Positions 27,405-55,080 of a DNA stretch of 64,000 nt are shown in pieces. A model generated the notes under the pieces. That model did no database searches. It was not told the origin of the DNA and was given only the letters and a program-made list of their open reading frames with translations. The DNA is taken from assembly GCA_037447655.1 (NCBI GenBank), contig JBBHKE010002277.1, positions 93,571 to 157,570 of the forward strand. The letters run 5' to 3'. The translations under genes were made by a program, and so were the position numbers. The first letter of the stretch is position 1; every line of letters starts with the position of its first letter. Origin of the DNA: Zygnema cylindricum. Taxonomy: Eukaryota > Streptophyta > Zygnematophyceae > Zygnematales > Zygnemataceae.

Positions 27405-28584
27405 GGTTATGGGCCTGTCATCAAGAATTCCTATCTTTTCCGGGGATAAGTATGTTTACTGGGCGGATATGGTGGAGACACATTTTGAAAATGTCAATCT
27501 TTTGGATATATTGGATGGTTCTTTGGATGAATCTGATCCGTCATGGTCTAAGAAAAATACGCATGCTCGTTCTATTTTGAAATTTTGTATATCTGAGGAC
27601 TTAGCCATGTCTCGGATAAAAATGAAAAAAGCAATTGATATCTGGAAATCCATTAAAAGTGATTATGAAAAGGCTAATGTTCTGGAAGAACTTCTATTGG
27701 TTGGAAAAATTTGGGACTATAAGTACACTGGCGGTACAATGGCTGAATATTCTAACAAATTTCGTATTCTTATAGATGCACATGCTTGTGCCGGTGGGGT
27801 GTTTTCTCAGTTTCAACAGGCAGCATTGCTCATGCGGGGTCTCCCTCCTAGTATGAAAGGAGCATCTGACATGCTCAAACAGAAAGATAAAGCTAGCTGG
27901 ACCTTACAGTTAGCAATCAATATTTTATTAGAGGAGGAAGCTACATCTAATATTCTCAATGTTGAGCAAGTAGAGGCTTTTAATTCAGAATTTGGAAAGA
28001 ACGGTCAATTTAATCAGCAAAGTAATCAGTTTACCCAATTCAGACAGTTTAATCTGGGGGGAAATAGAAAATCCAACAATGCATGTTTTTATTGTAGTGA
28101 GAGAGGTCATGGATACAAATACTGTCCTAAACTTAAACAAGCTAACAATACAGGTTTATACAGGCCAGGATGGCAACAAAGTCAGTTTTACAAAAACTTC
28201 ACGAGGCCTAAACCTCGTGGAAATGCACTGTTTTCAGCTTCTTCATCACTCCAAGACGAAACTCTGACATTTTCTGAGGAGGACGACACGGATCTATTCG
28301 CTATGGCGGCAGCAATGGAAGGTGCAAAGGACCCTGGATGGATTATGGATACAGGAGCGTCAGCGCATATGTGTTGGAACAAGGCCATCTTCAAAAATCT
28401 GAAAGCAACGCCGGAGAAAAATATTTATTATGCTTGTGGAATGAGTGTCCAAACTCGTGCAATGGGTGATGTGTCCTTGCTAGTTGATGTGGATGGAAAA
28501 CCAATTGAAAGGACTCTTCACAATGTCTTATTTGTGCCTGACTTTAAGAAAAATCTGTTTTCTACGTCGTTGGTTGAGAGTTAA
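27346..28584 (+). pseudogene. Young copia gag and protease
   Basis: A 412-codon frame starts at an ATG inside the 5' LTR (MSTSTITAAPPPAPVVVEQQ) and crosses the primer-binding block (VMG). Gag UBN2-like region covers residues about 25-215 (RIPIFSGDKYVYWADM, NKFRILIDAHACAGG, LLMRGLPPSMKG). A CCHC knuckle CFYCSERGHGYKYC is at about residues 247-260. Protease follows with active site WIMDTGASAHMC at about residues 331-342 and FVPDFKKNLFSTSLVES at the end. TAA at 28582-28584 stops it. The same frame continues at once into GFEVSLKNGRQVV, so the stop is probably a point mutation in a longer gag-pol frame. Programmed stop suppression is the alternative. Confidence 0.93.
27405..27415 (+). other. Primer-binding site of the young copia element
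   Basis: GGTTATGGGCC follows the LTR without spacer. It has the same 11 first bases as the primer site of the dominant lineage and again matches the complement of the initiator tRNA-Met anticodon arm, but the match ends earlier (TGTC follows instead of CACC). Confidence 0.65.
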
Positions 28585-30003
28585 GGCTTTGAGGTCAGTT
28601 TGAAAAATGGTCGGCAGGTTGTTAGCAAAAACGGCAAGGTTGCGGTTACAGGTACTAGAGATAGTAACAAGATGTATCGCATGGATATGGCTAATACAAA
28701 AGAAAATGATGTTCTGTACTCCGGTGTTTTGCACTCAGATGAGTTGTGGCATAAAAGATTAGGCCATGTCAACTATGATAGTTTGAAAAAAATGGTTGTT
28801 GCTGGAAAGATAGAGGGTGTATCAATCACAGATGGGCCGGTCAAAACTTGCGATGGTTGCGCTTTAGGCAAAATCCACAGATTGCCATTTCCTAACGAGT
28901 CTGAGCATCGGTCGACCAAACTTTTACAACAAATTCATTCGGATGTCTTTGGTCCGGCGAAGGTTCCTTCTGCCGGAGGAATGAAATATATTGTCACCTT
29001 CACAGATGATTTCTCACGGTTTACAAAAGTTTACTTCATGAAGGAGAAGAGTGAAGTGTTTGGTCACTTCAAACACCATAAAGCATGGGCTGAAAAACTT
29101 CATAATTCATCTATTTTGCAGCTCAGATCGGACAATGGTGGTGAATATACATCAAAAGAGTTTGAAACCTTTTTACTCGAGGAAGGCATTAGTCATCTAC
29201 TGACTGTTCCATATTCACCGGAACAAAATGGGGTGTCGGAACGGCTGAATAGAAATCTCACGGAAAGCTCTAGATCTATGCTCGCCGATGAAGGTGTGGA
29301 TCCGAAATTCTGGGCTGAGGCTCTAAATTGTGCAGTTTATATTAAAAATAGGATAGGATCAAGATCGGTAGAAACAACTCCTTACGAAATCTGGACGGGT
29401 AGCAAACCAGATGTTAGCCATTTCAAGGTCTTTGGTAGTCAATGCTTTATATTATATACGTCTACGGATAGATGGAAAATGGAACCGAAGGAATTACCGG
29501 GTATTCTGTTAGGATATGATGATCACTCGAAAGGTTATAGAGTCTTTGTGTTTGAAAGGCAGAAAATAGTTGTAGCTAGAAACATCATTGTTAAGGATGA
29601 ACTAGACTCCATAGATTTATTTCAAATGACAGAGCAGCAAAGGCAACAGAAAGTACAGGAGTATGTCATCTTAGATTGCATGCAGGAACTTGTCCCGCAG
29701 ATTCTACAAACTCCGGTAATGACTCACGAATCAGACTCCCTCCAACTTCCTCACCAACTTTGGGTCCAGACGGACCAAGAGCAGTCAATACAGACGGAAC
29801 GCAACCAGCGCAATCACGAACACACGGATCGCAACCAGCGCAATCAGCAAGACACGGATCGCAACCAGCGCAACCAGCGCAATCAGCGCAATGCGCGGGA
29901 TCCGACGATCTCAGCCTCAGAATTTCCGGGGGGAAGAAGATCAAGCAGCCGCCTGCAAGCAAGCTCTCACTTTGCCTACTCGCAGTCTCAGGGGAGCCCT
30001 TGA
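28585..30003 (+). pseudogene. Young copia GAG-pre-integrase and integrase
   Basis: This is in the same frame as gag. Its zinc region reads LWHKRLGHVNYDSLKK and CDGCALGKIHRLPFP (H-H-C-C). The integrase core has catalytic Asp in IHSDVFGP, Asp in LRSDNGGEY and Glu in SPEQNGVSERLNR, the D,D-35-E pattern. The C-terminal region reads FWAEALNCAVYIKNRI, HFKVFGSQCF, GILLGYDDHSKGYRVF. A downstream NQRN/DTDRNQRN repeat (29800-29895, DNA repeat cgcaaccagcgcaat) is likely a local expansion in the linker. It ends at a TGA after QSQGSP, because of a one-base shift near 29990. The next frame continues the linker. Confidence 0.93.
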
Positions 30004-30032
30004 CCATCCAAGAAGCTTTCTCATCACCATAG

Positions 30033-31571
30033 CAGAATCACTGGATTGAGGCGGCAAACGACGAAATGAAGTCGATCATGGAGGCTCAAACATGGGAGCT
30101 CGTGGACCTTCCTCCAGACCGAAAAGCGATCGGCAGCAAATGGGTATTCAAGGTGAAGTTAAATCCCGATAACACCATTGAACGCTATAAGGCCAGACTT
30201 GTGGCGAAGGGGTACAATCAAAAGGAAGGAATCGATTTTGAAGAAACATTTTCTTTGGTTGTAAGATTTCCAACAGTTAGGATTTTGCTGTCGCTAGCTG
30301 CTATAGAAGATATGGAAATTCATCAGATGGATGTAAAAACGACCTTTTTGCATGGAGAACTAGAAGAGACCATTTACATGCAGCAGCCTGAAAAGTATGT
30401 AGAACCAGGAAAAGAGCACTTAGTATGCAAGTTGCTAAAATCTTTGTACGGCCTGAAACAGGCCCCGAGACAGTGGAATATAAAGCTTGATGAATTCTTG
30501 ACTAGTCTAGGATTTCAAAGGATAAGTTCTGATCACTCTGTCTACGTTCTAAAGGGTGAAAATAGGATAGTGTATATAGCGGTATATGTAGATGATTTGC
30601 TATTAATTAGCAAATCAATGGCTGAAATTAACAAAATCAAAACTGCTCTAAACTCACGGTTCGAGATGAAAGACCTCGGTGAGGCAAAATATATTTTGGG
30701 TATCCAGGTAGAGAGGGACAGAAATAAGAAAATAATAAAATTGACTCAAAAAGAGGCTATTGGAAACATGTTAGATGAGTACGGAATGCGGGGGGCAAAA
30801 TGGTGTTTAACTCCAATGGAGTTTCGGCAGAAGTTAGAGGGAGAAGAGACAGAACCAGGTGTTATTGTTAGCGAGTATTTAGAATCAGGGGAGAATGATC
30901 CTATGGCAATAATACCTTATAGACAGATAGTGGGAAGCTTAATATACTTCATGAACTGTACCCGTCCTGACATTGCTGCAGCAGTCGGGGTACTGAGTAG
31001 GAGTCTAGAAAATCCGAGAAAATCTGATCTGGATGCAGCAAAGAGAGTCTTAAGATATTTGGCAGGAACTAAAGATCTCAAACTCACTCTAGGCGGAGGA
31101 GAAATCAAGCTGCAAACATGGAGTGATGCAAGCTATGGCGACATGCCAAGCCGGAAATCTACCACGGGATTTGTTCTACAAATTGGGAACGGTACTTGCT
31201 GCTGGAGCAACAAACTTCAAAAGGTGACAGCACAATCGACAATGGAGTCGGAATATATGGCAGCAAGCTCGGCCCTCAAAGAACTCTTATGGGTAAAATC
31301 CATGTTACAAGAACTAGGATACATGCAAGTTGGTCCACAGGTGATCTGGTGTGATAACCAGGCTGCCATTGCCATTGCTTCTAACCCGAGTCATCACTTC
31401 AAAAGCAAGCACATGGATGTACGATTACACTTTCTAAGAGAAAAAGTGTTCTCTAGAGTGATTAAATTATGTTACTTACCAGATGCAAAAATGATTGCTG
31501 ATATGCTCACTAAAGCTCTTCCTGCTCCTAAGCTGAAGTATTGTAGGGAAGCAGTGGGATTAAGTGAATAG
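30033..31571 (+). pseudogene. Young copia reverse transcriptase and RNase H
   Basis: The open frame is longer than 500 codons. RT blocks are WELVDLPPDRKAIGSKWVFKV, RYKARLVAKGYNQKEGIDFEE, MDVKTTFLHGELEETIYMQQP, SLYGLKQAPRQWN, YIAVYVDDLLLIS (YVDD catalytic box), MKDLGEAKYILGIQVERD and EAIGNMLDEYGM. RNase H has TWSDASYGD (catalytic Asp), GFVLQIGNGTCCWSNKLQKV, STMESEYMAASSALKELLW, WCDNQAAIAIASNPSHHFKSK and DMLTKALPAPKLKYCREAVGL. It ends TAG at 31569-31571. A TAG at 30030-30032 separates it from the upstream linker in the same frame. The enzyme core itself looks intact. Confidence 0.94.
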
Positions 31572-32587: not shown

Positions 32588-33958
32588 GGTCTATTTTAGA
32601 CCAAAGAACAACAACGCTGCCCCCGGAAACTCAAACTCGAACTTGTACTCAAGCAAAAAGAGTGGGAGAAAGAAAGATCCGAAAAGACGGATAGGCAGCA
32701 AGAGGGAAAACAAACAGAAGGGGGGGGGGGACAGAACACTGGTAACCAAGGGGAATTACCACCCAACTCCTCGATCTAAAACTACTAAATTGTCTTAATC
32801 ACAGTTGAGGCAAATAAAATTGCCAAAATTCGATGATGCTCAGATGTCCAAAAACTCAGGGGGAAATACACAACCAAAGGTTCCAAGTGTTTCGCGTGCG
32901 GCTTCCTACGACACCTGGAAAAACAATGCTTCCGCAAGAATGGGGTACCGAAAGAAATGATGCAATTCGCCTTGTTCACTGGAGAAGGAGAAACTGCGAT
33001 AAACACTCTCCCTCTTTTGCTCCTCTACCCATGGGGGCGTTGCTTTCAGCCCACGACTGAAACACCGGAGCCACCTCCAAACCCGCCAACACTCACACGA
33101 GAGAGGATATTTCAACAACAAAGTTAACAATTGGCCGCCATGGCATCCGAATTTGATGCTCTCAGTTTGAAAACCTCCACTCTGACTGCAGCACAGAAAC
33201 TCCTGCGACAAAAATAGGAATTATTGCAGATGCTTGCGGAGCTTGAAAAGCAGACCATAGCGGGTGGGGATGATGACAATGTAATGGGTTGGAATTTGGG
33301 ACCCCCTAAAGCTCACCATGCCCCATCCTTTTTATCCGGAGCCTGGAATGTGGGTGTAGGAGACAGTCGCAGATAGCTTTGTCCTTCCATCTCGGTGCAG
33401 AGAACAAACAGACAAAGAATAGCCCAAGGGGACCATAACCGAAAGGCCATTGGACCGTTATCTTTTACTCCCGGGGCAGTTATTCTGAACTAAGAGATAT
33501 GCCTCGAAATTAAACCTACACAACCACCGCTCTGGACCACCAAGAAACTTCTACTCAGCTTCAAAAATTACAAAGCGGGAAAAGAAAAAAGGCTTAAAAA
33601 ACAAACATTGGAAAATGAGAAAAGGAGCAACCAAGATTGGTTTGAAAGATACTTGGCAGAACACGTGGGAAACGATACACCACAGTCCCTGCCCGCATCA
33701 GATTCAGACGCGGAAAATAAGAAAGCTGGGGGGAGGAGCACGAGAAACTGAAAGAACAAGGTTCCCCCATTTCACCGCCTAATTATCAACCTCAATCCTC
33801 CAAACCTGCTATTATATTAGTGAGGCACCTGATGCCCTACTCCCTCACCCATGTCAAAACTCTAGCCTCGTCCCATAATTTGCCCAAAGATATCTTCATT
33901 CTGGCACTAGGAGAGGAGATCCACATGGGATATAGGAAAGGAACGCTTGCAAAACAAC
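32588..33958 (+). pseudogene. Ty3/gypsy gag, second part with second zinc knuckle
   Basis: Gag coding resumes with FRPKNNNAAPGNSNSN and a basic stretch (KKSGRKKDPKRRIGSKREN). A second CCHC knuckle CFACGFLRHLEKQC lies at about 32890-32931. Then come long Gln/Glu/Lys-rich segments broken by stops (ASEFDALSLKTSTLTAAQKL, KQTLENEKRSNQDWFERYL). A homopolymer of about ten Gs near 32722-32731 is a probable frameshift site. The last codons (GYRKGTLAKQLL) end at the insertion of element K. Confidence 0.6.
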
Positions 33959-35138
33959 TATTGAAATTCAAGTATTTTCTAGGTTTAGAGATTATAAAAT
34001 AAAAGGCAAAAATGAGACAGTGACAGCCTGCCTCTAACTCTTCTCTCAAGTCCCCATATTGTCGCAATCACTGAAGACTAAAGTTGGAGTTAGAGCCATG
34101 GCTACCTAGACTGCCCAAAGAGGACAGGAAGGCCAATTTTGATAGAGTTACAAAAGGTTTGACGGACCCAAGAATTGAACTTAGTACCAGTCGTCCGTCA
34201 AAGTAGCAGTTAGCTTTATCGTATAAGTCTAAGACCAGTGTTAACGTATATAGAGTTTGATAAATATTTATATAGTTACACGTGGACTAGTTCGTTTAAC
34301 AGGAAGGAGATATGTAATGCATAGATACAGTTTTAAATAGTACGGAGTACCGTTTTTTATATGAAACGGATACCGCGCATTTGTTTCGATCGCGAAACAA
34401 ATACCGCGCGTCTATTTTCAACGGATAGAAATATATCACGTTTTGATCGCACAGCCACTATAGGCGTCGCGATTGGGGAATGTGTACTTTTGGGGTTTTA
34501 CGGTCATCGCCACATCAAAAAACACGTGGCGTGTCAACATTGGATTACGACAACTCGAGAGATTACGGGAACAAATCCTGATATGACATGTGTCAACATT
34601 TCGGCAATGTAGTACGATGGTCGTACAGAAAGTACACCAACACCTTTACTTTTTTGTACGACACACTAATGTGATTGGTGCCGTACGTCAGTAGATAAAG
34701 TTTAGAGAGAGATAGGACTTCAAAAATTTAGTAGGTAGCCACCTCTCTCCGAGAGAGTTCCTGTACAAAAGTTCAACTTTGACCCTCCATAACTTAGTGC
34801 TGAGGGAGCAAATTCAAAGATTATTTTTGCTGCAGACTCAGCGGAGCCCATGCTACACATAGCTGTAGTCGATTAGAATTTTTGCCAGCCAGAGTGGTTG
34901 CATTTATTAGGGAAAGTCAAAGTTGGTGAATGTGTCCAAATTCTCATATTTGTACTTTGCATTCTGTGGGGGAACTAAGCACACAGAAAGTCTTCTTTCA
35001 CAGGGGTGAATTTATATTGGGATTTTGACTATCACATTGTTAGTGAGCTGGGTTTAAATTCACTTCAAGTCGTCACTATCTAGATAAGCTTCTTGTAAGT
35101 TGCCTACTTTGAGGACAATTGGAGGTCTTAGAGTTTTA
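33959..35138 (+). repeat. Element K 5' LTR
   Basis: It begins TATTGAAATTCAAG (TG changed to TA) and ends GGTCTTAGAGTTTTA. It contains the antisense tRNA-like region (34155-34235), an ACGT-core box near 34522, a GTAC cluster (34610-34690) and a degraded TATA-like region near 34765. It is less conserved at its ends than the 3' LTR. Confidence 0.86.
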
Positions 35139-36933
35139 AGTTATGGGCCCACCATCTAGGGTGCCTATGTTTGATTGATCATGCTTCACTTATTAGGAGT
35201 TTACGATTGAGGGATTGTTTTTCGAAAAGAACTTATGGGGAATTGTTTCAGGACAAGTGAGGTGTCCATCACCGAGCTTCGATGGAACTCACTATGGAGA
35301 TTAATATAGGGCTTCCCAGAAAACAAACCAGAGTTCAGAGGCAACGGAAGGTGAAGGGAAAATCATTTCCATGGAAAAAAAATTGGGGAGAAAGGAAAAG
35401 GAACACCTATGGTGATGGGAGCTAGACTCTCGGCTACGGTTCCACTTGTAGGGGTTATAACTAAAACTGAAGAAAATGACGGTAATATCTAGGAGTTTAA
35501 AAACACTGTAGCAAAACAACTCATATTTAGATATGTGTCTAAATTCGTAGCTATCATTCTTTTAAACCTAACCAAGTCTTCAGAAATCTAGGAAACACTG
35601 ATTCAGATTTATAAGAGTGAAACTATACAGAGGCACCAATTAGTAAAACAAGAAATAGAGGCCTATGTTTATCAAGGGGTAGCTTGATAGAGTTTTCCAA
35701 TGATGTTGCTACATAATATGTTGAGTTTGCTAGTGCAAGTTATGTAGAATCTGAGGTGAGAAAGATTAACACACTAATCATAAAACTTCCAGATGACTAC
35801 AAAGACATAATTTACCGTATGCAGGCAATGAATTGCTCCTCATGGACTTGGAGCATTACCATGGGGATGATTCTTGTGAGGGAAAGCACCTTAGAGCTTC
35901 GTAGGGGAAGTGATAAGGTGAATGCACTAACAGCTGGTGGTGACACGCGAAGGTGTGATAAGAGGAATAATGGTGATTGGCGGAAGCGTGATGAGAGGAA
36001 GAGAGACAAAAGTAAACCATACCAGAACTTTGGTGGAAAAAGAGGGAGAGGAAAAGAAAAGAGGGCTTTTAAAAGAGGGGTTTGCTTCTTTTATAAGGAT
36101 TCAGGTCACTATATGGAGAAATGCCCTTGTTTGGAAGAACTTAGAAGTAAAAAGTAGATGAGGAGGAACAAGGGGAAGAGGAGAAAGAGGATGAAGATAT
36201 TTTGGAGCTTCTCCGTATTGGTAGTATACGGAAGAGAGAAATGCATATAGAAATTCCACAAAAGCAACGGTGTACTTTTGACGGTATAAGGGAATTAAAG
36301 AGAGAGGAGAAACTTAAGGAAGTTCAAAATATTGAGGATAGTTTCATAGATATTTTGGAAACACAAAACTGGTCGGAAAGGGGAACTACGACGGATTCCA
36401 AGGATAGGGGAGAAGAGGAATATTAAATGAAAGGTTTATGGGAGGATAAATTTTTTTTGGGAATAAAAATAGAAAGTGATAGTGGAAAGAATTCCATTAG
36501 AGAGAGTGAGGAAAGTTCAAAAAATGGGGTAATTATCATGGATAAAAATATGAGTAAGGAAGATATATATCTTATGGGGAAATTAGTGGAGACTAGTGGT
36601 TTTTGGGAAAATTTGGGGGAGGGGTGGATTTGACATCACTCCTTGGTGTAATGTCGCTTATGAAGATGTGCCTGTAAAAGGGTTATCATCCGGGTATATG
36701 TTGCAGATTGGGGATGGGGCTGACTGTTGGAAAGGCAAAAGGGATAGTGGATTTTGCTTGGATGAAAAAGAGAGGAGGTGGATAAAATTGTTGCTCGATT
36801 AATGAAAAGTGGCATGCAAAATAAAATGTATGATCAACAAGATGAAATTATTTCGGATCATCTAATACACTTTCTTAAATATCAAGGTATTCGCTTAAAG
36901 CTTCATGAAGGAAAAAGGGGAAAGAAAAGAAAA

Positions 36934-36996
<63 letters not shown>

Positions 36997-37047
36997 TTGT
37001 TGTTTTCGATGGGAGTTGAAAAAAAGTAGACTAGAAAATAAGGGGAG
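35139..37047 (+). pseudogene. Element K Gag with miniature pol tail
   Basis: It follows the primer-site block AGTTATGGGCCCACCA (35139-35154). The Gag region is frame-broken until 35756-36157, which reads INTLIIKLPDDYKDIIYRMQ and KPYQNFGGKRGRGKEKR. The knuckle reads CFFYKDSGHYMEKC, with the second Cys lost. An acidic segment and IPQKQRCTFDGIRE lead into 36202-36426. A block similar to RT (MKGLWEDKFFLGIKIE, 36427) and an RNase H-like block (YMLQIGDGADCWKGKRDSGF, 36596-36802) follow. A TA dinucleotide repeat of about 56 bp (36937-36992) lies just before the polypurine tract. Confidence 0.8.
36937..36992. repeat. TA-dinucleotide microsatellite
   Basis: An uninterrupted (AT)n run of about 28 units lies inside the 3' end of the element K internal region. 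D, H and J have an A-rich but not TA-repeat sequence at this place, so it expanded in this copy. Confidence 0.95.
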
Positions 37048-38228
37048 TGTTGAAATTCAAGAATTTTCTAGGTCTAAAGATTGTAAAATAAAGGCAAAAA
37101 GGAGACAATGACTGCTTGCCTCTAACTCTTCTCTCAAGTCCCCACACTGGTCAGAGTCACTAAAGACTAGAGGAGGAGTTAGAACCATGGTTGCCTAGAT
37201 TGTCCAAAGAGGACAGGAAGGCCAATCTTGGTAGAGTTACAAAAGGTTTGACAAACCTAGGAATTGAACCTGGTACATGTCGTCCGTCAAAGTAGCAGTT
37301 AGCTTTATCCTATAAGTCTAGGACCAATGCTAAGGTATATGGAGTTTCATAAATATTAATATAGTTAAACGCGGACTAGTTTGTTTAACGGGAAGGAGAT
37401 ACGTAGTGCATAGATATAGTTTTAGATAGTACGGAGTACCGTTTTTTATATGAAATAGATACCACGCATTTGTTTCGACCGCGAAACAAATACCGCGCGT
37501 CTATTTTCAACGGATTGAAATATATCACGTTTTGATCGAACGGCCACGATAGGCGTCGCGATCGCGGAATGTGTACTTTTGGGGTTTTACAGTCATCGCC
37601 ACGTCAAGGGACACGTGGCGTGTCAACATTGGATTACGGCAACACCAGAGATTACGGGAACAAATCCGGATATGACATGTGTCGACATTTCGGTAATGTA
37701 GTACGATAGCCGTACAGAAAGTACACCGACACCTGTACTTTTTTGTACGACACAGTAATGTGATTGGTGCCGTACGTCAGTAGATAGAGTTAAGAGAGAG
37801 ATAGGACTTAGAAAATTTAGTAGGTAGCCGCCTTTCTCCGAAAGAGCTCTTGTACAAAAGGTCAACTTTGACCCTCTATAATTTACTACTCAGGGGAGCA
37901 AATTCTGAGATTTTTTTTGTTGCGCACTTAGGGGAGTCGAGTTTACACATGGGTGTAGTCGGTTAGAGTTTTTGCCTGTCAAGGTGGCTGCATTTATTAG
38001 GGAAAGTCAAAGTGGGTGAATGTGTCCAAATTCTCATATTCTAACTTTGCATTCTGTAGGGGAACTAAGCACACAGAAAGTCTTCTTTTACAAGGGTGAA
38101 TCTGTATTGGGATTCTGACTGTCATGGTGTCAGTCAGTTAGGTTTAAATCAACTTGAAGTCGGCACTATCTAGATAAGCTTCTTGTGAGTTGCCTACTAT
38201 AAGGACCAATTGAATTCTCAAATTTTCA
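37048..38228 (+). repeat. Element K 3' LTR
   Basis: The LTR starts TGTTGAAATTCAAG after AAATAAGGGGAG and ends AAATTTTCA. CACGTG lies near 37613, the GTAC cluster at 37700-37780 and the antisense tRNA-like region at 37245-37320. Confidence 0.88.
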
Positions 38229-38448
38229 ATAACCTAGTTTTGTCTTTTTGTCGGCCGATCCCAAAACCCATATGATGGATAGGGATTACAAGGCATTATC
38301 CGTGGCCCTCATCCTCAATCGGACCGGTAATTTCAAGCTCAATGGATACGAAAGCTACGAGGACGCAGTGGTCGATACCGGTGCGCTCCTGAATTTAATT
38401 ACAACACTTTCCTTACAGCAAATTCCCAAGGAATTACGGCTAGAAATC
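38229..38448 (+). pseudogene. Ty3/gypsy protease, N-terminal part
   Basis: Open stretch 38248-38454 reads KALSVALILNRTGNFKLNGY followed by AVVDTGALLNLITTLSLQQ. DTGA is the aspartic-protease active-site motif, and the hydrophobic VALI...VVDTGA...LI spacing fits retroviral-type proteases. It would process the polyprotein. The frame is cut at 38448 by a solo TRIM-like LTR and continues weakly after 38683. Confidence 0.72.
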
Positions 38449-38677
38449 TGTTAGATTTCCTAGAAATCCGGGATTCGGCATGTCCCACACTTTGGAAAAT
38501 TGAGCCGGCCAGGGTTCGAATCTGGGACCTTTCACTTCAGCTGCGAACGCACTACCACTGTGCAACCAGCTCGATGTTGAGACTGGCGGGTCCGTACCCA
38601 TTTATTACGGGCGGCTCGAGTATGGATATTTCCATATTCTACCCCGTATTGGACCGGCTTCACGTGCCAATCCAACA
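38449..38677 (-). repeat. Solo LTR of the TRIM-like element
   Basis: At 229 bp it is exactly the length of the LTR at 10938-11166. Read on the minus strand it starts TGTTGGATTGGCACG and ends GAAATCTAACA. It has no coding capacity. Most of its length is shared with the other copy, including a 71-nt tRNA-like segment. Confidence 0.85.
38502..38572 (-). ncRNA. tRNA-like segment within the TRIM solo LTR
   Basis: The 71-nt cloverleaf-like sequence has acceptor stem GAGCTGG with CCGGCTC (one G-T pair), D arm GCAC/GTGC, anticodon-like stem TTCGC/GTGAA with loop AGCTGAA, and a T arm with loop TTCGAAC. A- and B-box-like sequences (GCACAGTGGTAG and ATTCGAACCC) could act as an internal Pol III promoter. 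It is in sense with the LTR. It has no T at loop position 33, so it is not a canonical tRNA. Confidence 0.62.
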
Positions 38678-38682
38678 AAATC

Positions 38683-39269
38683 CTCCCGAGCGACATCTAC
38701 TTGAGTACAGTTAGCAGCGGGAGTGAGATAGTCCATTTAATAGTCCAAGCTATAGATATTGAATTCTTCGATGACGCAGGCCGATGAGTCCGAATCCAGC
38801 TCCCCTTCTAAGTGGTGCAAGGGAAGCAGTTTGAAATACTGCAAGGGATGGCCACATGGACCAGGCTTAATATGGAGTTATGTGTTTGGAAGGAATAGTT
38901 TACAGTACGAGACCTCGAAAAACCCGAAGGGACCCGGGTGGTGGTTCCCTTAGATTTATGGAATAGAGGGAAGACAAATGCCTTGTGTTCAGCTGTTACC
39001 CGGTTTATGCAACATCCTTTCTGATACAACCTTTTGTAAGCTCAACGGATATCGCTAAAGAGACATAGCAATTCACGATTTCCAAGCGGTGGGAAGAAGG
39101 ATATAAGGACCGATTATTCCAAATGAATGCACTTCGGCGAGAAGTGGATAGTACTTTTTTGGCTATATCACCGCACATAACATTTTCAATTCATGGGTCA
39201 CAATCTTTTAAGATCTTGTCTAGAAATTAGAAACTTAATTGACAAGTGGTGTCATCAACCGTTTTTTAT
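38683..39269 (+). pseudogene. Gypsy protease remnant and linker before the methyltransferase
   Basis: This coding-like but frame-broken stretch includes short readable blocks GTRVVVPLDLWNRGKTNAL and WEEGYKDRLFQMNALRREVD. I recognise no domain. Its position between DTGA and the methyltransferase motif I suggests the end of protease and an N-terminal extension of the methyltransferase, but that is inference. Confidence 0.45.
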
Positions 39270-40240
39270 TCTGCACTCTGGATTTTATCACTATTTTCTG
39301 GAATCAACACTGATTTAGAGGCAGTTTTTGAAGGCACGATACAAAGTGGAAGCTTATGCAGCTGTGGAAATATCACCCGGAGCACGAGCTGTTAGCGAAC
39401 ACCGCCTGCACCAACTTCACCATTTATATCCCCAACAACTTCTAGTGTGCGCAATCTCTAAAGCTCACTGAAGTCTTCCCCAGAATGTGGATAACATATT
39501 GACACCCCATTTAGCCGGTCTAGGAAGGGTAGATCTAGTGGTGGCGGGATGGCCTTGTTAAGGATACTACGTAGCAGGACAAGGAAAAGGGCATACAGAC
39601 ATAAGAAGTAGAAGATTCTTTCAGATGATCAAGTTTATTTCATGGATACAAAAGCTCCAAGACACACCAGTGGGGTAGGTTTAGGAAAATGTCCACCATA
39701 GGGATGATCGGCGACAACATGTTGCGGACATTTGGAGGCAAGTCACCCAGATATTAGAATCTCTATTGGTTTTCGATGCGGCACAGATGGGATCTCGGGC
39801 CCACAGAGTTAGGGCATATTGGACAAATCCATTCCTGCTTCTCTTCCTCAAGCAACTCCTGGAAAAAGAGATCCCAGACCCCCAAAATTTGTGCAGCAAA
39901 TTCTTGGAAAAGGACGGATGGCAACGCCCGAAACAAAAACCAATCATTCCCCCTTCTTCAAATGCAACAAGCCAGGATTTCCCCGCCGAGCCCTTCCGGC
40001 CTTTATCTCTTTCCCGCACAGTCACGTATATTGAAAAGGCGTAGCCGAAATGATCTTTGATATTACAGTGGGGACATAGACAACACCAACAATTGTAGAA
40101 AGAGCGCAAGCCATGGGATTCCATCCAGACACTACACCGACACTAGGTATATCAAACCTCCAAAGGTGCAGCCTCATAGGAAAAAGTGTGGACTTCAACG
40201 CAATAACATAGATTTTCAAGCATGCTCTTGCCTTCTCCAG
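39270..40240 (+). pseudogene. C5-cytosine DNA methyltransferase domain (DNMT3-like) in a gypsy element
   Basis: The motifs fall in the canonical C5-methyltransferase order. Motif I is LSLFSGINTDLEAVF (39285-39329, S-adenosylmethionine binding). The motif II region is AYAAVEISPGARAVSEHRL. Motif IV is VDLVVAGWPC (catalytic Cys codon 39556-39558), followed by TAA at 39559-39561 where Gln is expected in related enzymes. A block like RRFFQMIKFI follows, then motif VI ENV (39685-39693). The motif VIII-like block is AAQMGSRAHRVRAYWTN (39781-39831), close in form to the R-x-R-x-[FY]-W-x-N of DNMT3. The motif IX-X region is ERAQAMGFHPD then RCSLIGKSVDFNAIT (40179-40190 for GKSV, canonical GNSV). The roughly 320-codon length fits a whole catalytic domain. 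One frame shift after motif I, in-frame stops around motifs IV-VI and another shift before motif X disable it. It lies between protease and RT of the gypsy polyprotein. Confidence 0.8.
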
Positions 40241-41208
40241 TCTCTACTCCCCAAAGTTAAGAAATACTTACCTTCAAGCTCCTTAATTGTTGGCAACGCA
40301 AGCAACTGTGCAGCTTGAGGAGGGGAGGGAAAGGAGAAAATTTCAAATTCCACACCTGAGGGTTTCTCTAATTGGGGGGAGCGCCAGCTCAAAAAGAGAC
40401 AACTTACTGAAAGTTGTTAGTAGTAGAATCCTAGTCGGAAGCGAAAAGGTAGACCCACAGGTAGGATTGGATTTCGACATTACTGCTGGGGCAGACCTCC
40501 TTAAAGATGGGCAACGGTCGAGCTAGGGAAAATGGATTGGACCTTGGGTGGACAGTTAAATCCTCAGCAGAAGGCTTAACTACCAGAACTATTAGCAAGG
40601 AACAAGCAGGTATTCTTGTGGTAAGAAACAGATGTCAGAATCTACAAAGGAACTCGGTTCTAAATTAACCTCATAGACGAGACGGCAACTGTTTAGCAGA
40701 TCAGTACCCTCTCAGCTTCAAAGATAAGGAGTTTATAGCTGCTAAAGTCCAAACCTTGTTGGAAGCCGAATTCGTTCAAGAAAGTAGTGGACTCCATCGG
40801 TTCGCTTCCCCAACAGTTCTCCTTCTCAAGGAGGATGCGTCGAAAAAAATGGTGGATTTCCGCATGTGTGGGGATTACAGAATGCTGAACACTGCCACCA
40901 TCCCAAACCGGTATCCAATGCCAACCTCGGAAGAGATTTTCGACTCTTTTGCTGGTGCCACCATCTACTCCACTCTTGATATGAAGAATGGGTTTCACCA
41001 AATAGCTATGGAGCCGAAGCACCGGGAGAGGGCGACATTTTGGGCACGTTCCCGATTATACGAGTGGATATACATGCCCTTCGCGTTGAAGAATGCACCG
41101 GCAAAATTCCAACGGGCAATGGACGAAGCCCTCCAAGGAATTAATTGTGCTCAGTGCTACATCGATGATGTGACCATCTTCTTCAAGACCTTCGAAGAGT
41201 ACTAGGAG
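40241..41208 (+). pseudogene. Ty3/gypsy reverse transcriptase, N-terminal and catalytic part
   Basis: Typical gypsy RT follows the methyltransferase. 40241-40690 is a degenerate linker (DFDITAGADLL, then PLSFKDKEFIAAKVQ). 40756-41205 is open: LLEAEFVQESSGLHRFASPT, GDYRMLNTATIPNRYPMPT, FDSFAGATIYSTLDMKNGF, HQIAMEPKHRERATFW, MPFALKNAPAKFQRAMDEAL and CYIDDVTIFFKTFEEY. The YIDD catalytic box is at 41158-41169. It is cut at 41208 by a solo LTR; the next codons after it continue the fragment. Confidence 0.92.
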
Positions 41209-42276
41209 CATGTTGAAACTCTGAGACCTCCATAAGTTCTCAGAGTGGACATCTTCGAAGAAGCCTCTTTGATAACCGTGACCCTTTTGTGTTTCAGCAA
41301 GAACAACTGCCACCCTGGTAGACAAAAACACTGACCAGCTTCACCCTTGTGAAGGCATGACACCCCTGAGTCAATAGCAAAAAGATTCTCTGAATTTGCT
41401 CCCCCGAGCAGTAAGTAATGGAGGGTCAATGTTGACCTTTTGTACAAAAGCTCTTTGGGAGAGAGGGTCCTATCTCCTAATTTTTCTAAGTCCTATCTCT
41501 CTCACAGACTCTTTCTACTGATGTACGGAGCCAATCAGATTACTCCTCCGTACATAAAAGTACAGATGCCGGTGTACTTTCTGTACGAACATTGTACGAC
41601 ATGGCCAAAATGTCAACACGTGGTATATCCGGATTCGCTCCCTTAATCCTCGGAGATGCCGTGATCCAATGTCAGTCCGCCACGTGTCATCCGATGTGGC
41701 GATGATCAAAAACCGCCGGAATTCTCTTCCGTGATCTTGGCGTTTTATTTTGGCCGTCCGATTAAATTCATATTTAATCGTAGCCGTAATAATTACATGC
41801 GCGGTATTCGTTTCGCTAAAGAAATAAATGCGCGGTATTTGTTTCTTATCTGTATCGTAATCCGTACTTTTACATTACTGGATCTATGTCTCCCGTAAAA
41901 CTATTTCAGTTAAATGAATAATCCTACGTATTAATGTTTAATTAATTATCAAACCCTACACTACGTAACATTATCTCTAGACTTAACGATTAAAGCTACC
42001 GGCTGCTGACTGTTTACCGGCCGGCAGGTTCCAGGATCAAATCCTGGAGTTGTCACATATAATTTTAGTAAATAAACCCCTACTAATATTTATTTCCCGT
42101 AAGCCTATGGATAGCCTAGGTAGCCATGGCTCTAGTTTCCTCTCCAACTTCTTATTGACTGCGACAAGTTTGAGAGTTTGGAGAGAGAAGTTAGAGTTAG
42201 ACTGCCTCGGCTTCTTTCTATATTTCTATTCAAACCTGGAAAATACTTTAAAAAGACCATTAATTTCTACACATGT
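41209..42276 (-). other. Target-site duplication CATGT around a solo copia LTR
   Basis: CATGT at 41209-41213 and 42272-42276 lies exactly outside the LTR and repeats gypsy RT coding bases. This duplication was used to fix the LTR ends of the whole lineage. Confidence 0.92.
41214..42271 (-). repeat. Solo copia LTR in the gypsy RT
   Basis: At 1058 bp it reads, on the minus strand, TGTAGAAATTAATGG at the start and CTCAGAGTTTCA at the end. It contains the tRNA-like segment (41985-42056, plus reading), ACGT boxes near 41690, GTAC palindromes (41550-41600) and its own LTR-encoded Gag start near the end. No internal region is present, so it is a recombination remnant. Confidence 0.93.
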
Positions 42277-43175
42277 CTAGATTGTCCTCCGAGCATTTCA
42301 AGCAGCTGGTTTGAAGTGTCACCCTGGTAAAGGTATTTTCAGTGTGCATAAAATTATTTACCTTGGACATGAAGTGACCCCTTGAACAGTGGGCCCCTAT
42401 ATGGTCAAGGTGGCCGCCCTTGAGGCCCTTCCTCCACCTCAAGACATTTCGGCCCTCCGCACCTTTCTCGGCCTTGCCAACTACTATCGGAAGTTTATTC
42501 CCAAGATCAGCAGTCACTCACAACCTCTCAATGAGTTACTACGGAAGGACCAAGAATGGCACTGGGCCGACGAGCATCACATTGCCTTCTATTTTTTGAA
42601 GGACGCACTTAAGCAACACTCCGTGCTCTGGATGCCCGATCACCAAAAACCTTTTCTCCTTTACACTGATTGGAGCAAGTTTGGATTGGGGGCAATTTTG
42701 GCTCAAGTAGACGACGCCGAAGGTGAGTGTGCAGTGGCCTAAGCTAGCGGGAGCAATTACCGAGCGGAAGGGAATTACACCTGTTACTATGGGGAGCTCC
42801 TTGCAACTGTTTGGGCAATTCAGCATTTCCGGCCATACTTATACGGTATCCAGTTCACACTCATTACAGATCCTCAACCTCTGAAATGCATCATGGAAAA
42901 CAGTTAATTAAACGGCAAACTCGCCAGATGGATTCTAATTTTGCATGAATACGATTTTTGTATCATGGATCGGGAAGGTGAAATTCACAAAAATGTCGAC
43001 AGACTCAGCCTCAATTCCGACCCCTCCACTTTGGATTCTACCGGGGCGCGGCACGATGAGGATCCGAAAATCAATTTGGGACTTATACGAGCCTCCTCCC
43101 CTTTTATATAGCTTCCTCAAGCTAGGGGGGAAATGTCCACTTTTGCGGTAGACGTGGAGGGACATGCACCAATAG
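42277..43175 (+). pseudogene. Ty3/gypsy RT thumb and RNase H, 3' truncated
   Basis: After the solo LTR the frame is broken until 42389-42742: VAALEALPPPQDISALRTFLG, LANYYRKFIPKISSHSQPLN, LKDALKQHSVLWMPDHQKPF, LLYTDWSKFGLGAILAQVDD. The last block carries the RNase H catalytic Asp (YTD). Further blocks are YYGELLATVWAIQHFRPYLYG, KLARWILILHEYDFCIMDRE and GEIHKNVDRLSLN. It ends at about 43175, where copia element B begins. Integrase is absent, so the gypsy element is truncated. Confidence 0.92.
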
Positions 43176-43973
43176 TGCAACTCTAAGACCTCCATAGGTC
43201 CTCAAAAAGGGCAACGTGCAAGAAGCTTCAAGGATAACCCTCACCCCTTTGTGTTTCAACAAGAATAAATGCCACCCTGGCACACCAAAACTCTGACCAC
43301 CTTCACCCTTGTAAAGGCAAGACTCCCATGTGCCGATAGCAATCATAATCTCTTAATTTGCTCCCTTGAGGAGTAAGTTATGGAGTGTCAAAGTTGACCT
43401 TTTGTACAGAAGCTCTATGGGAGAGAGGGTCCTATCTACCAAATTTTTCTAAGTCATATCTCGCTCTAAAACTCTATCTTCTAACGTTCGACACTAATCA
43501 TATTAGTGTGTCGTACAGAAAAGGTACATCTACCAGTGTACTTTTTGTATGGACATTGTACGACATGGCCAAAAAATCGACACATTTTATATCCAGATTT
43601 GTTTCCGTAATCTCTGGAAATGCCAAAATCCAATCTCATCGTGCCATATGTCAACCGATGTGGCGTTACCACAAACCACCGAAATCCTCTTCCGCAATCT
43701 CGACATTCATTCCAACCGTCCGATTAAATGCAGATTTCAATCATAACCATCATAAATACGTGGGCGGTATTCGTTTCGCTATAGAAACAAGTGAGTGGTA
43801 CCTATTTCTTCTGCGTACTTTAATCCGTACTGTATAAAACCGATTTTATGTATCCCGTAAATAGTTACCGTTAAATGAGTTTGTCGACGTGGAAACATTC
43901 ATATAATTATCAAACCCTATATGACCTAACACTAGTCCTAGACTAAATGGATAGAGATATTGGCTACTAGCAG
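43176..43973 (-). repeat. Element B 3' LTR, first part
   Basis: The LTR end (TGCAACTCTAAGACC on the plus strand) adjoins gypsy sequence AATAG. The LTR is split at 43973 inside its tRNA-like segment by element J and continues at 48054. CCAAT and GTAC boxes lie at 43488-43565. Confidence 0.85.
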
Positions 43974-45111
43974 TGAAATTCTATGGGCTCCATTGTCATA
44001 CAAAATTCGCTGATCTAAAGAAGCTAATCTAGATGGTGCAGACTCCAAGTTTATTTAAACCCAAATGATTGACCCCTTGACAATCAGAACCTCATTACAA
44101 CTTGACCTCGAAAAATAAGACCTTCTGTGTGCTCAGTTCCACCACAAAATGCAAAGTTAGAATATAAGTTTTAGATAACATTCCCCACGTTGAATTTCCC
44201 TTAGAAATGCAGCCACCCTGGCAGGCAAACACTCAGACCAACTAAACCCCTGTGTTGCTTGGACTCCTTGAGTCTGCAGCAAAAAGAATCATTTAATTTG
44301 GTCAACTGAGTTGATAGTTATGGCTGCTCAAAGTTAGCTTTTTACACAAGAGTGCTCTTTCGGAGAGACAGCTACCTACCCAAAATATTATAAGTCCTAA
44401 ACCCCTCTCTAGACCCCCTAGTACTGAGGTACTGACCAATCAAAAGACTGTACCGTACAATAAAATACAGATGCCGGAGTACTTTCTGCATGAATAGTGT
44501 ACGATGTCGCCATAATGCGATATTTGTCACATCCAGCTTTGTTGTTTTCCGTTCGAAAGATTTCGTAAACCCGCACGATGTTGCCACGTGTCATCCGGAG
44601 TGGCGAAGTCATCAAACCGCCAAATTTTCCTTCCCGCGAAATCGGGGCTAACCACGGCCGTCCGATTTACATAGGTATTTAATATAGACCGTCGAAACAA
44701 ATGTCTGTACTATTTGTTTCGTCCGGTACTAATAGTACAACTATTTTTATGCCCTATAAACCGTAATCTTGTTAAATAGGAAAACCTACGTGTACGTGTT
44801 TGCATATTTATCAAACCCATTACACCTTAACACCATTTCTAGACTAAATGGATAAAGCTACTGGCTACAGGTGACTTGACAAACGCTAGGTACCAGGATA
44901 AATTCCTGGATCTGTCAAGTATCTTTTAGTAAATCTACCAAATTCACCTCATGTCTTCTCTTGTGAGCTTAGGCAGCCATGGCTGTAGCTCCTCTTATCT
45001 AGCCTATAGTGACTACGATAAGTGTGGGGGCTTGGAGAGGAGAGTTATAGGCAAACTGCCTCAACTCATTTCTATCCTAATACAGACCTAGAAAATACTC
45101 AAATATCAACA
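43974..45111 (-). repeat. Element J 3' LTR
   Basis: Plus-strand start is TGAAATTCTATGGGC and the end TATCAACA. CACGTG lies near 44586, the GTAC cluster at 44450-44510 and the tRNA-like module at 44835-44930. Confidence 0.88.
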
Positions 45112-46941
45112 CTCCCTTTATTTTCTAGTCTATTTTCCTTTCATCTCCCATAAACAAATAAACAAACACCTCCTCCCCCTTTTTTTATTTATTGTTTCCC
45201 TTTTCCTTTCATAAACTTAAGAAAAATACTCTCGTATTTACAAAAGTGCATAAGATGAACCGAAATAATAATTGCATAACACATTTTATTTAGCATCCCA
45301 CTTTTCATAAATCCGAGCCAAGATTTAATCCACATCTCTTTTCCATCCACACTAAATCTAATTTCCGTCTTGCAATTCAAACAGCCAGCCCCATCTCCAA
45401 TCTCCAACACACACCCACATGCTAACCCTTTAAAAAACACACTTTTATAAATGCCACCACTCCCTTTAGTGATGTCAAACCCATTACCCCCAAAAATTGA
45501 ACTTTCCTCACTCTCTCCCATGGATTTCTTTCCACTATCACTTTCTATTTTTATTCCCAAAAAGTATTTCTCTTCCCCTAAACCTTTCATTAAATATTCC
45601 TTTTCTCCCCTATCCTTTAAAACCCCCTCTAGTTTTTCTTCTCTGCTTTCCTCGGAATCCATTGAAGTCTCCCTATCCGACCAGTTTTCTGTTTCCCACA
45701 TATCTATAAAATTAACCTCATTTTTTCTAACTTCCTCAAGTATCTCCCTTCCCTTTCATCCCTAATACCTCTAAAAGCACACTGTTGCTTTTGTGGAATT
45801 TTTGTGTACTTTTCTCTCTTCTCCATTTTATCGATGTGAAGAAGCTCCAAAATTTCTTCATCCTCTTTCTCTTCTTCCCGTTCTTCCTCCTCATTCAAAT
45901 ATCAACTTCTAAGTTTTTTCAAACGAGGACACTCCTCTATATAATGACCCGGTTTCCTACAAGCGGATCAAACCTTTTTTTTCAAAGCTCCCCTTTCTTT
46001 TCCTCTCCCTCTCTTTCCAACGAAGTTTCGATAAGGTTTACCTTTGTACTTCTTCCTCTCATCATGCATCCACTCGTCACCGCCGTTCCTCTCATAACGC
46101 TTCTGCCGATCACCACCAGCTATATATGCATTCACCCTGTCACTTCCCCTTCGAAGTTCCAAAGTGTTTTCCCTCATAAGAATCATCCCCATGGTAATGC
46201 TCCATCTCCATGTGGAGCCATACATACCCTGCATATGGTAAATGATGTCTTCGTACTCATGTGGGAGTTTCATGATTACTGTATTTATCTTTCTCTCCTC
46301 AGATTCTACATATCCCGCACTAGCAAGCTCAAGATATAACGCTGCAATATCATTGCAAAACTCTATCATGCTACACCCATTATAAACATAGGCCTTGATT
46401 TCCTCTTTTACAAACTGCTGCCTCTGTATAGTCTCACTCTTATAAATCTGAATTAGTGTTCCCCATATTTCCAAAGACTTAGTTAGATTTAAAAGAGTGA
46501 TTGCTATCGACTTAGACACATATCTAAGTAAAAGATGTTTTGCTATAATGTTTTTATATTCCCAAATTTTCCTGTCATTTTGTTCAGTTTTAGTTCAGTT
46601 ATAACCCCCACAAGTGGAAAGGTAGCCGAGAGCCTAGCTCCCCTCACCATCGGTGTCCCTTTATCCTTCTCTAATTTTTCCCCATCTATGGTAATGATTT
46701 TCTTTTCACCTTCCGTTGCATCCTTACTCTGGTTGGTTTTTCTGAAAGCTTTAAATTATTCTCCATAGTGAGTTCCCCCAAAGCCCGGTGGCGGTCACCT
46801 CACTTATCCCGAAACAATTCCCTATAAGTGCTTTTAGAAAAAAAATCACGCCATGATAAACTCCCTATAAGTGAAGTCTGTTCCATCGAACATAGGCACC
46901 CTAGATGGTGGGCCCATAAACTGAAATTTTATGGGCTCCAT
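45112..46941 (-). pseudogene. Element J Gag with miniature pol tail
   Basis: From the LTR-located start, Gag runs through 46535-46905 and 45968-46519 (SKSIAITLLNLTKSLEIW, QRQQFVKEEIKAYVYNGCSM, NFVGKRGRGKERG) with the knuckle SACRKPGHYIEEC near 45930, first Cys lost. The acidic segment (NEEEEREEEKEDEEIL) and IPQKQQCAFRGIRD follow at 45704-45898. The tail 45189-45701 (170 codons, the longest tail frame of the four copies) reads DRGEKEYLMKGLGEEKYFLG then GGNGFDITKGSGGIYKSVFF and GCVLEIGDGAGCLNCKTEI. It retains the general shape of RT and RNase H blocks but none of the catalytic Asp residues. Confidence 0.82.
46906..46921 (-). other. Primer-binding site of element J
   Basis: This is the same block as in the other copies with one change (minus strand GTTTATGGGCCCACCA). 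It lies between Gag coding sequence and the 5' LTR. Confidence 0.65.
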
Positions 46942-48048
46942 TACAACACGGAATTCGCACATCCAAAGAAGCACATCTAGATAGTGCTGACTCCAAGTAT
47001 ATATAAACCCAAATGATTGACACCTTGAGAATTAAAACCCATTATAGCTTCACCATTGTGAAATAAGACTTTCTGTGTGCTCAGTTCTACCACAAAATGC
47101 AAAGTTAGAATATGAGTTTTGGATAACAATCCCCACTTTGACTTTCCCTTAAAAATGGAGCCACCCTGGCAGGCAAACACTCGAACCAAACACACCCCTG
47201 TGTAAGCATGGACTCCCTTGAGTCTGTAGCAAAAAAAATCATTGAATTTGGTAGTTATGGCTGCTCGAAGTAAGCTTTTTATACAAGAGTGCTTTCAAGG
47301 AGAGGCGGCTATCTACCCAAAATATTATAAGTCCTAAACCCCTCTCTAAACCCCCTAGTATAGAGGTACTGACCAATCACAAGACTATACCGTACAATAA
47401 TTACAAATGTCGAAGTACTTTCTGTACGAACAGTGTACGATGTCGCCATAATGCGACATTTGTCACATCCAGATTTGTTGTCTTCCGTTCCGGATATTCT
47501 ATAAACCCGTACGATGTTGCCACGTGTCATCGGGAGTGGCAAAGTCCGCAAACCGCCAAATTTTCCTTCCCGGGAAGCCGACGCTAACCACGGCCGTCCG
47601 ATTTATATTGGTATTTAATACAGACCGTCGAAACAAATGTCCGTACTATTTGTTTCGTCCGGTACTAATAGTATAACTATTTCTATGCCCTATAAACTGT
47701 AATCTAGTTAAATGGGGAAACCTACATGTACGTGTATATATACATATACAACCCATTACACTTTAGCACCAATTCCAGACTTAATGGATAAAGCTAGCGG
47801 CTATAGGTGACTTGACACACGGTAGGTACTAGGATCAATTCCTGGATCCATCAAGTATCTTTTAGTAAATCTACCTAATTCACCTCCTGTCTTCTCTAGT
47901 GAGCTTAGGCAACCATGGCTCTAGCTCCACTTGTCCAGCCTTAAGTGACTACGACAAGTGTGGGGGCTTGGAGAGGAGAGTTAGAGGCAGACTACCTCTG
48001 CTCTTTTCTATTTTGATACAGACCTAGAAAATACTGAAAATATCAATA
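46922..48048 (-). repeat. Element J 5' LTR
   Basis: Plus-strand start is TGAAATTTTATGGGC. It ends TATCAATA instead of TATCAACA. It is similar to 43974-45111 through its length, with CACGTG near 47521, a GTAC cluster at 47390-47440 and the tRNA-like module at 47780-47870. Confidence 0.88.
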
Positions 48049-54738: not shown

Positions 54739-55080
54739 GAATGATCGGTGTACGTGTTTCACATTAAAAATGTCAATTAGTATGTATTCAATATCAGATC
54801 ATATATTTTTTGTTAATATGATTTAAATTATAGAAATTACAGATTGTGGTTTGTATTGAAGTGCATATTTTTTTTGATGTTTAAACAGATAAATAGCCAT
54901 GTGAACTTGTATTAATTTGGTTTTTATTAAAGAATGTGTATTTAATATATTATTATATCCAAGCTAATTTTGATTTAATCATAGGCATTATGGATTGTGG
55001 GTAATTGATTATATAAATTTTCACATTGATATTTAAAGACTTAAATAGTTGTATGATAAATGAGGTTATGAGAATAATTG
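54739..55080 (-). other. Probable intron in the helicase
   Basis: This AT-rich non-coding stretch sits exactly between KLKTG and PIILLRN, which are adjacent in helicases of this family. The coding side ends AAAACAG followed by GTGCAT, a fair splice donor. The acceptor side reads AC just before GTACACCG rather than AG, so splicing may be lost, or the interval is an insertion. A short repeated sense (SIIL and PIIL) marks the two sides. Confidence 0.45.

Follow-up and report, generated by a model that had tools for sequence, protein, structure and literature searches.

A lineage of Ty3/gypsy retrotransposons in the streptophyte alga Zygnema cylindricum is, as judged from its sequence, a carrier of a DNMT3-type cytosine methyltransferase (MTase) domain placed before the reverse transcriptase (RT). 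The window, that is the whole 64-kb stretch of DNA that we analysed (G000:C1718:93571-157570), holds one dead copy of this lineage, and relatives with the same domain were found in the same genome. We regard it as close to certain that this is a genuine captured DNMT3-type domain that serves these elements. Our fuller reading is that the lineage keeps the captured MTase under selection, that its Pol would be made by readthrough of a UAG codon, that its cDNA would be methylated by its own enzyme and that a PHD finger would steer its integration. Given that the anatomical core of this joint statement is firm, we put its probability at about 0.55.

The dead gypsy copy in the window

The copy in the window is a dead Ty3/gypsy relic that has been interrupted several times. 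Its pieces were placed by tblastn using pieces of a relative, and they are collected with the interrupting elements and the MTase motifs in Table 1. A copia element parts the first gag piece from the rest of the copy. For the nested LTR element further downstream, no target-site duplication was found around it and its limits are approximate. The SINE-like insert in the protease frame is one of two copies of a repeat of about 228 bp, and its tRNA-Gln-like stretch lies at 38501-38572 on the minus strand (ARAGORN). Behind the RT, the RNase H was recognized by RT_RNaseH_2 with an E-value of 4.7e-14, and tblastn with the integrase and PHD pieces of relatives found nothing in the window. Repeats fitting an LTR pair of the gypsy element were not found in the flanks of the copy on contig C1374 (10 kb before and 5 kb after).

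Table 1. Positions in the window of the gypsy pieces, the elements that interrupt them and the MTase motifs
Feature	Position	Strand	Basis
Gag, N-terminal and middle part	23728-25416	+	tblastn with gag of the relative on G000:C1374, 53-74% identity, four stretches
Gag C-terminus with CCHC zinc knuckle	32612-32950	+	tblastn, 49% identity, E 7e-22; open stretch 32837-33127
Stretch of the gypsy element between gag and protease	33796-33930	+	by eye, translation against relatives L037 and L011
Nested LTR element, two LTRs, gag-like interior	~33950-38230	+	LTR similarity; gypsy sequence on both sides
Aspartic protease region	38233-38448	+	tblastn with L006 piece, 75% identity, E 9e-32
Protease motif VDTGA	38371-38385	+	upstream of the MTase
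SINE-like insert with tRNA-Gln-like stretch	38449-38676	+	91% to 10940-11166
Remainder of protease frame	38677-38994	+	tblastn with L006 piece, 71% identity, E 2e-44
Conserved stop TAG CAA TTC, between protease and MTase	39066-39074	+	class I copies
DNMT3-type C5 cytosine methyltransferase domain, broken	~39243-40262	+	PF00145, DNMT3 chains, relatives
Motif I LSLFSG	39285-39302	+	
Motif II AAVEIS	39358-39375	+	
Motif IV VVAGWPC	39538-39558	+	
Motif VI ENV	from 39685	+	
Motif VIII AHRVRAYW	39799-39822	+	
Motif X LIGKSV	40173-40190	+	
RT palm with YIDD	40669-41202	+	RVT_1 E 3e-17
RT motif CYIDDV	41155-41172	+	downstream of the MTase
Solo LTR inside the RT gene	41214-42271	.	5-bp target-site duplication CATGT; LTR relatives
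RT thumb and RNase H	42338-43027	+	tblastn with L039 piece, 78% identity, E 6e-122

By examining the three-frame translation, we located on the plus strand all the motifs that a sequence-only reading of this DNA had named, in the order it had given (I, II, IV, VI, VIII and X, within 39285-40190), lying collinear between a protease with DTGA and an RT with YIDD as it had stated. Its span for the domain, 39270-40240, was right as to location, the domain edges being slightly wider (about 39243-40262). It had also called the copy dead because of stops and frameshifts, and in-frame stops and frame changes do occur throughout the domain. In the frame of the RT, four stops fall across 39322-40041 and motifs I and X lie in a different frame, while a 119-aa open stretch (39685-40041) is in the same frame as the RT stretch 40669-41202.

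First, none of the six single MTase fragments of the window matched PF00145 or any methylase profile in a profile search. Second, when the domain was read through, with stops and frame changes written as X, it matched PF00145 with an E-value of 2.2e-5 over 240 aa and of 3.2e-6 over 339 aa (39243-40262; 27.2 bits for a curated cut-off of 22), best over motifs IV-VI (profile positions 58-130 of 324). The search against PF00145, which the sequence-only reading had proposed as its own check, thus gave a match above the cut-off. The match to TIGR00675 (E 1.9e-9) scored 37.6 bits, far under the model cut-off of 100.65. Third, among solved structures, the 29 top rows of 39 are DNMT3A, 3B and 3C (best E 7.1e-6), the ten remaining ones are HhaI with E-values of 0.11 and weaker, and no DNMT1, CMT or DRM chain appeared up to E 1. 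The catalytic Cys (motif IV), Glu (motif VI) and Arg (motif VIII) are present. An AlphaFold model of the read-through sequence alone was useless (pLDDT 37.6). The profile and structure matches confirm that the region is a genuine C5 methylase domain and that the observation is real. A second MTase copy was not found within the 64-kb window.

The surroundings hold many LTR elements that are copia-like by their frames (by eye). One near-intact copia element lies at 27337-31571, between the two gypsy gag parts, with adjacent open frames of 415, 472 and 512 aa (gag-pol). Other LTR elements (33950-38230, 43973-48039 and more, in both orientations) have a gag-like frame and no RT was seen in them; we take these to resemble TR-GAG elements. 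PIF1-like helicase frames at 54317-56062 on the minus strand (by eye) perhaps belong to a Helitron, and a minisatellite at 57754-58565 has 26-bp units with higher-order periods of 52, 82 and 108. The plant tRNA-Met primer site, sought as a marker of the host, gave three matches, no more than expected by chance, and Rfam at gathering cut-offs gave none. A copia-rich window fits the genome description of Zygnema cf. cylindricum SAG 698-1a (359.8 Mb in 3,587 scaffolds, with 73.3% repeats), which gives Copia as the largest repeat class at 29.8% (PMC9915684).

Relatives in the genome and their methyltransferase

By searching the genome (352,776,454 bases in 2689 contigs) with PF00145, we obtained at least 123 matches (123 scored of 782 candidates, all over the cut-off), and with the window MTase at least 151 (from 150 scored of 1362 candidates). 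In the 150 matches listed, identity to the window MTase is 52-72%, the window itself excepted, and the matched part is stop-free in 35 (counted by eye). We then read 38 loci (L001-L038) with 1.5 kb flanks, which are the best of two lists made by MTase and not a random sample; since they were picked by their MTase, gypsy relatives devoid of the domain could not appear among them. Class I accounts for 35 of them, including the window copy and the intermediate L003, and class II for two (L004 and L005). The last one, L007, has no gypsy piece. Its stretch 1498-2100 corresponds to host chromomethylase exons. The best solved matches (2.7e-28 to 2.9e-28) are 9mvy, 7ubu and 4fsx, three structures deposited under the name DNA (cytosine-5)-methyltransferase 1, and 5guv comes next (E 2e-12). 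We take 4fsx to be the maize chromomethylase ZMET2 and 5guv to be an animal DNMT1. CMTs are described as plant enzymes first seen in charophytes (PMC6453930). GRAS, a mark of Zygnematophyceae and land plants, gave 27 matches in this genome and none in 14 control genomes, a weak control since at least ten of the 14 are prokaryotes.

The protease precedes the MTase in 33 of the 35 class I loci and the RT follows it in 28; both neighbours are seen in 27, the window copy included, and this order is contradicted in none. The search for other gypsy copies and for intact relatives, both advised by the sequence-only reading, was therefore fruitful, with the domain found between protease and RT in these 27 loci and with open MTase-bearing copies found in the same genome. 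A single open frame covers both MTase and RT in L006 and L018 and runs up to the end of the locus. The Pol order is that of Ty3/gypsy elements, with protease, RT and RNase H in the window, and with the integrase behind the RNase H in relatives. The class II locus L052 encodes the tail of the MTase, the RT, RNase H, integrase and PHD finger in a single 1306-residue open frame. In L005 (1117-3414, minus strand), a 765-residue open frame comprises zinc-knuckle-like motifs (below the Pfam cut-off) and most of the MTase, stopping short of motif X. With the protease query used, L004 and L005 gave no protease match. L003 (1-2629) represents an intermediate lineage, in which the MTase is 58% identical to that of L006 over 254 aa and the UAG site described below is kept; the flank read revealed no RT. 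In L040 (1173-2411), a 412-aa open frame lies directly 5' of gag, in the same frame and with one stop between.

To estimate selection, we used nine class I MTase stretches that are open over their whole length. They form 36 pairs, of which 23 yielded finite values and 13 were dropped as their distance was undefined, the ratio being taken where dS exceeded 0.02. The median dS was 0.168 and the median dN 0.038, with a dN/dS of 0.24, and the median dN/dS of the RT part was 0.135 (38 of 45 pairs), both ratios being biased downward because the frames were chosen for openness. These values suggest that the open copies are under purifying selection and that the MTase is kept under selection. As for the catalytic residues, counted in the 34 class I relatives whether open or broken, the Cys of motif IV is kept in 32 and the Glu of motif VI in 33; in motif VIII, Ala and His are each kept in 32 and the second Arg in 31. 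Motif X reads mostly GQS in class I (Q in 26 of 34) and GKS in the window. Motif IV is PCQGY in class I, SECQG in the class II locus L005 and SPCN in DNMT3A. The SEC of L005 stands where C5 methylases carry PC.

These counts bear on the idea that a host DNMT3 gene or pseudogene happened to land in one dead gypsy copy. Such an accident would agree with the single copy in the window taken alone, but the genome search rules it out for practical purposes, because 27 loci have protease and RT both beside the domain and in the same order. The neighbours recorded in 33 (protease) and 28 (RT) of the 35 class I loci, a dN/dS below 1 and a divergent class arranged in the same way as far as the PHD finger leave its probability negligible.

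The METHYLTRANSFERASE kind was judged by pairwise scores against solved structures only. The class I MTase of L018, open throughout, matched DNMT3A with an E-value of 7e-9 from motif I to past motif VIII, the next kinds being DRM (0.024) and HhaI (0.064). Likewise, the MTase of L005 matched DNMT3A at 4.7e-11, followed by entry 3g7u at 6.8e-5, with HhaI at 0.005 and the best DRM chain at 0.08. PF00145 matches of the relatives' MTases (6e-9, 3.7e-14, 6.4e-14 and 6.5e-14) were all over the cut-off. In the window, the motif order from I to X is unrearranged, unlike that of DRM. The sequence-only reading, which had called the domain DNMT3-like with a motif order other than that of DRM proteins, is borne out on both points, and the scores support an MTase closer to DNMT3 than to DNMT1, CMT, DRM, DNMT2 or bacterial enzymes. 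It shares with plant and animal DNMT3 the motif order, the AHRxR..W form of motif VIII and a best structure match to DNMT3A or DNMT3C; it differs by its motif IV (PCQGY or SEC), by additional sequence between motifs II and IV and by its place in a retrotransposon polyprotein.

We then asked whether the two classes go back to one capture. The MTases of L006 (class I) and L005 (class II) share 38% identity across 262 residues, with 2 gap positions, and between motifs II and IV both classes contain a stretch where DNMT3A is gapped in the L018 alignment. This identity and this common stretch favour one capture, and we infer that the MTase was captured once. Two separate captures, one per class, would account for MTases that differ at a median of 0.67 (about two thirds) of aligned positions, for the UAG missing in L004 and L005 at the class I site and for the different motif IV of L005. 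However, besides the 38% identity with hardly a gap and the common stretch, both classes have the MTase before the RT and a PHD finger, making two captures improbable. MTase and RT distances were correlated over 29 loci (Mantel test, r 0.79, 0 of 2000 permutations as high), a value that can be explained by the class split, and weakly so within class I (r 0.315 for 27 loci, with 80 of 2000 permutations as high).

The kept UAG codon and the terminal PHD finger

Several copies have protease and MTase in the same frame, separated by a single stop that is always at one place. In the window, TAGCAATTC occurs only once, both strands counted, at 39066. By scanning the region 60-300 bases ahead of the MTase for CAATTC with any codon in front of it, we found the site in all 35 class I copies. 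The codon is TAG in 33 of them, never TAA or TGA, and a sense codon in two (L014 and L025). The TAG sits mostly at -171 to -180 from the MTase (-201 in L003), and in 4 of the 33 TAG copies indels have put it out of frame with the MTase start. No UAG was found at this site in the class II loci L004 and L005. Because this stop is kept in nearly all copies and is always UAG, programmed readthrough is its best interpretation, and class I Pol is probably made in this way. Programmed UAG readthrough is used by murine leukaemia virus and tobamoviruses, and the readthrough rule is UAG-CAR-YYA, to which the UAG-CAA-UUC of class I is a near fit only.

On contig C1374, downstream of L006, the RNase H is followed by an integrase (H2C2 1.3e-15, rve 6.7e-13) and then by a PHD finger. 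This PHD finger, read in the flank L039 and lying at the end of the frame, matched PF00628 with an E-value of 2.8e-5 and 24.5 bits, just over the cut-off of 24, and its nearest solved structures are PHD-finger proteins (E 0.001 and weaker). By using this stretch of L039 as the query, we found it in seven of the eight class I copies read (L039 itself, L041 and L043-L048); no PHD was seen in L044, where the integrase match ends prematurely. All eight metal ligands (C4-H-C3) are present in three of the seven stretches, and a stop interrupts two of the seven. In class II, the PHD finger of L052 (3530-3919) matched PF00628 at 2.7e-11, with PHF12, Lid and BAZ2B as best structures, and follows an integrase (rve 1e-12) with an H2C2 zinc finger; in L049, the start of a PHD is followed by a stop (by eye). 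The L052 PHD is much nearer the textbook form than the class I PHDs. Taken together, the copies show a class I plan of gag-protease-UAG-MTase-RT-RNase H-integrase-PHD finger. Chromoviruses are Ty3/gypsy elements with a chromodomain after the integrase. The elements described here resemble them in that a domain of the histone-reader type follows the integrase of a gypsy Pol, and differ in that this domain is a PHD finger (PF00628) and not a chromodomain, and in having an MTase before the RT.

Known elements and the proposed role

The sequence-only reading had mentioned reports of MTases captured by retrotransposons of algae or dinoflagellates, and this was correct (PMC5890265). De Mendoza et al. 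(2018; PMC5890265) described KnitGypsy-Dnmt3 of Klebsormidium nitens, with a DNMT3-type domain in a gypsy Pol frame, under purifying selection and with DIRS-like repeats, and a 2025 survey reported that streptophyte and dinoflagellate retrotransposons carry DNMT3 members, naming the LTR family as Copia (PMC12344493). The kind is thus already known, and the elements found here are, as far as these descriptions go, a more elaborate variant of it. Like KnitGypsy-Dnmt3, they have a DNMT3-type domain with unrearranged motifs in a gypsy Pol frame of a streptophyte alga and under apparent purifying selection, with MTase and RT sharing an open frame here in L006 and L018. By description, they are set apart by at least 151 matches, the conserved UAG and the terminal PHD; the words PHD, readthrough and frameshift are absent from the main text of PMC5890265, which gives K. 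nitens fewer copies than Symbiodinium. The downstream flanks L039 and L041 showed none of the DIRS-like repeats described for K. nitens. SymbioDIRS-Dnmt3 of Symbiodinium (PMC5890265) likewise combines a DNMT3-type domain and an RT in its Pol frame, and differs by its tyrosine recombinase, the integrase here being of the DDE type (rve 6.7e-13 and 1e-12) with H2C2.

In the open-access literature, we did not find the terminal PHD, the kept UAG, the two classes or the occurrence in the Zygnema lineage, some of which the K. nitens element may share. Zygnema is not named in the main text of PMC12344493, and the part of PMC10952607 consulted (Zygnema, DNMT3, retrotransposon) makes no mention of MTases in retrotransposons. 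According to a 2019 opinion paper, land plants lack such elements (PMC6338049), which a zygnematophyte host does not contradict. A mosquito gypsy paper was rejected as a precedent for the PHD, which there is the name of a neighbouring gene. Among 239 candidates of 132-420 aa from a large protein database, a length range that excludes polyproteins, none matched at E <= 1, and searches of viral contigs (three queries) and genome contigs (one) gave pattern matches and no relatives.

The sequence-only reading had proposed that the element could mark its own DNA or alter host silencing. Our scheme would run as follows. The UAG would be read through at a low rate, giving much Gag-protease and little Gag-Pol per particle, and the protease would free the MTase from the polyprotein. 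The MTase would then methylate the new double-stranded cDNA, inside the particle or in the pre-integration complex, while the PHD finger, in the place that the chromodomain occupies in chromoviruses, would read the histone H3 tail and steer the integrase. New copies would land already methylated in chosen chromatin, and by resembling old silent DNA or by doing less harm they could escape a stronger response. That self-methylation of cDNA is the main job of the MTase is plausible, at slightly less than even odds. The de novo CG methylation shown in yeast by SymbioDIRS DNMT3 domains (PMC5890265) speaks for the scheme. Against it stand a motif IV that is PCQGY and not SPCN (SEC in L005), a motif X that is mostly GQS, a UAG context that fits the readthrough rule only nearly, PHD ligands that are complete in three of seven class I stretches, the negative protease search in L004 and L005, the negative LTR search on C1374 and the yeast result for KnitGypsy-Dnmt3 given below.

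More tentatively, the polyprotein might hold a writer-and-reader set for chromatin, with a DNMT3-type writer after the readthrough UAG and a PHD reader on the integrase. Animal DNMT3 combines a catalytic domain with a PHD-like ADD reader, and the element has MTase and PHD in one polyprotein. On this design, the cDNA would be pre-methylated and matching chromatin picked, and one capture before the split of classes I and II would have been retained during two successful radiations in one alga. We hold this possible, with the odds leaning against it.

Two other uses of the domain seem unlikely to us, and to a similar degree. First, the MTase may act mainly on host DNA or chromatin, Pol products spreading or saturating methylation and so blunting targeted silencing. 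The many copies would suit this, as would a PHD finger able to carry the enzyme to host chromatin, and the discussion of PMC5890265 offers the same speculation for Symbiodinium; the placement in Pol behind a kept stop, however, suggests work in the particle. Second, the domain may be kept for another job (RNA methylation, nucleic-acid binding as a partner of the RT or folding of the polyprotein) with little DNA methylation. Here the unusual motifs IV and X agree, as does KnitGypsy-Dnmt3, which gave no methylation in yeast (PMC5890265), a result that its authors consider inconclusive because human DNMT3B gave none either; SymbioDIRS DNMT3 domains showed de novo CG methylation in yeast in the same study. 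But the three catalytic residues (Cys, Glu and Arg) are each retained by 31 to 33 of the 34 class I relatives, which counts against a purely structural role since such a role does not require them, and the best matches are DNMT3-type DNA methyltransferases.

We keep self-methylation of the cDNA as the preferred reading of the domain's job. Why a parasite would carry the type of enzyme that silences parasites was left open in the discussion of PMC5890265 in 2018. With many copies in two classes, both dead and open, one can now ask in this alga whether fresh insertions arrive methylated, and where. The PHD finger and the kept stop, absent from the main text of PMC5890265, give two further handles on the mechanism by which a family of MTase-bearing gypsy elements may bring its own machinery for marking DNA.
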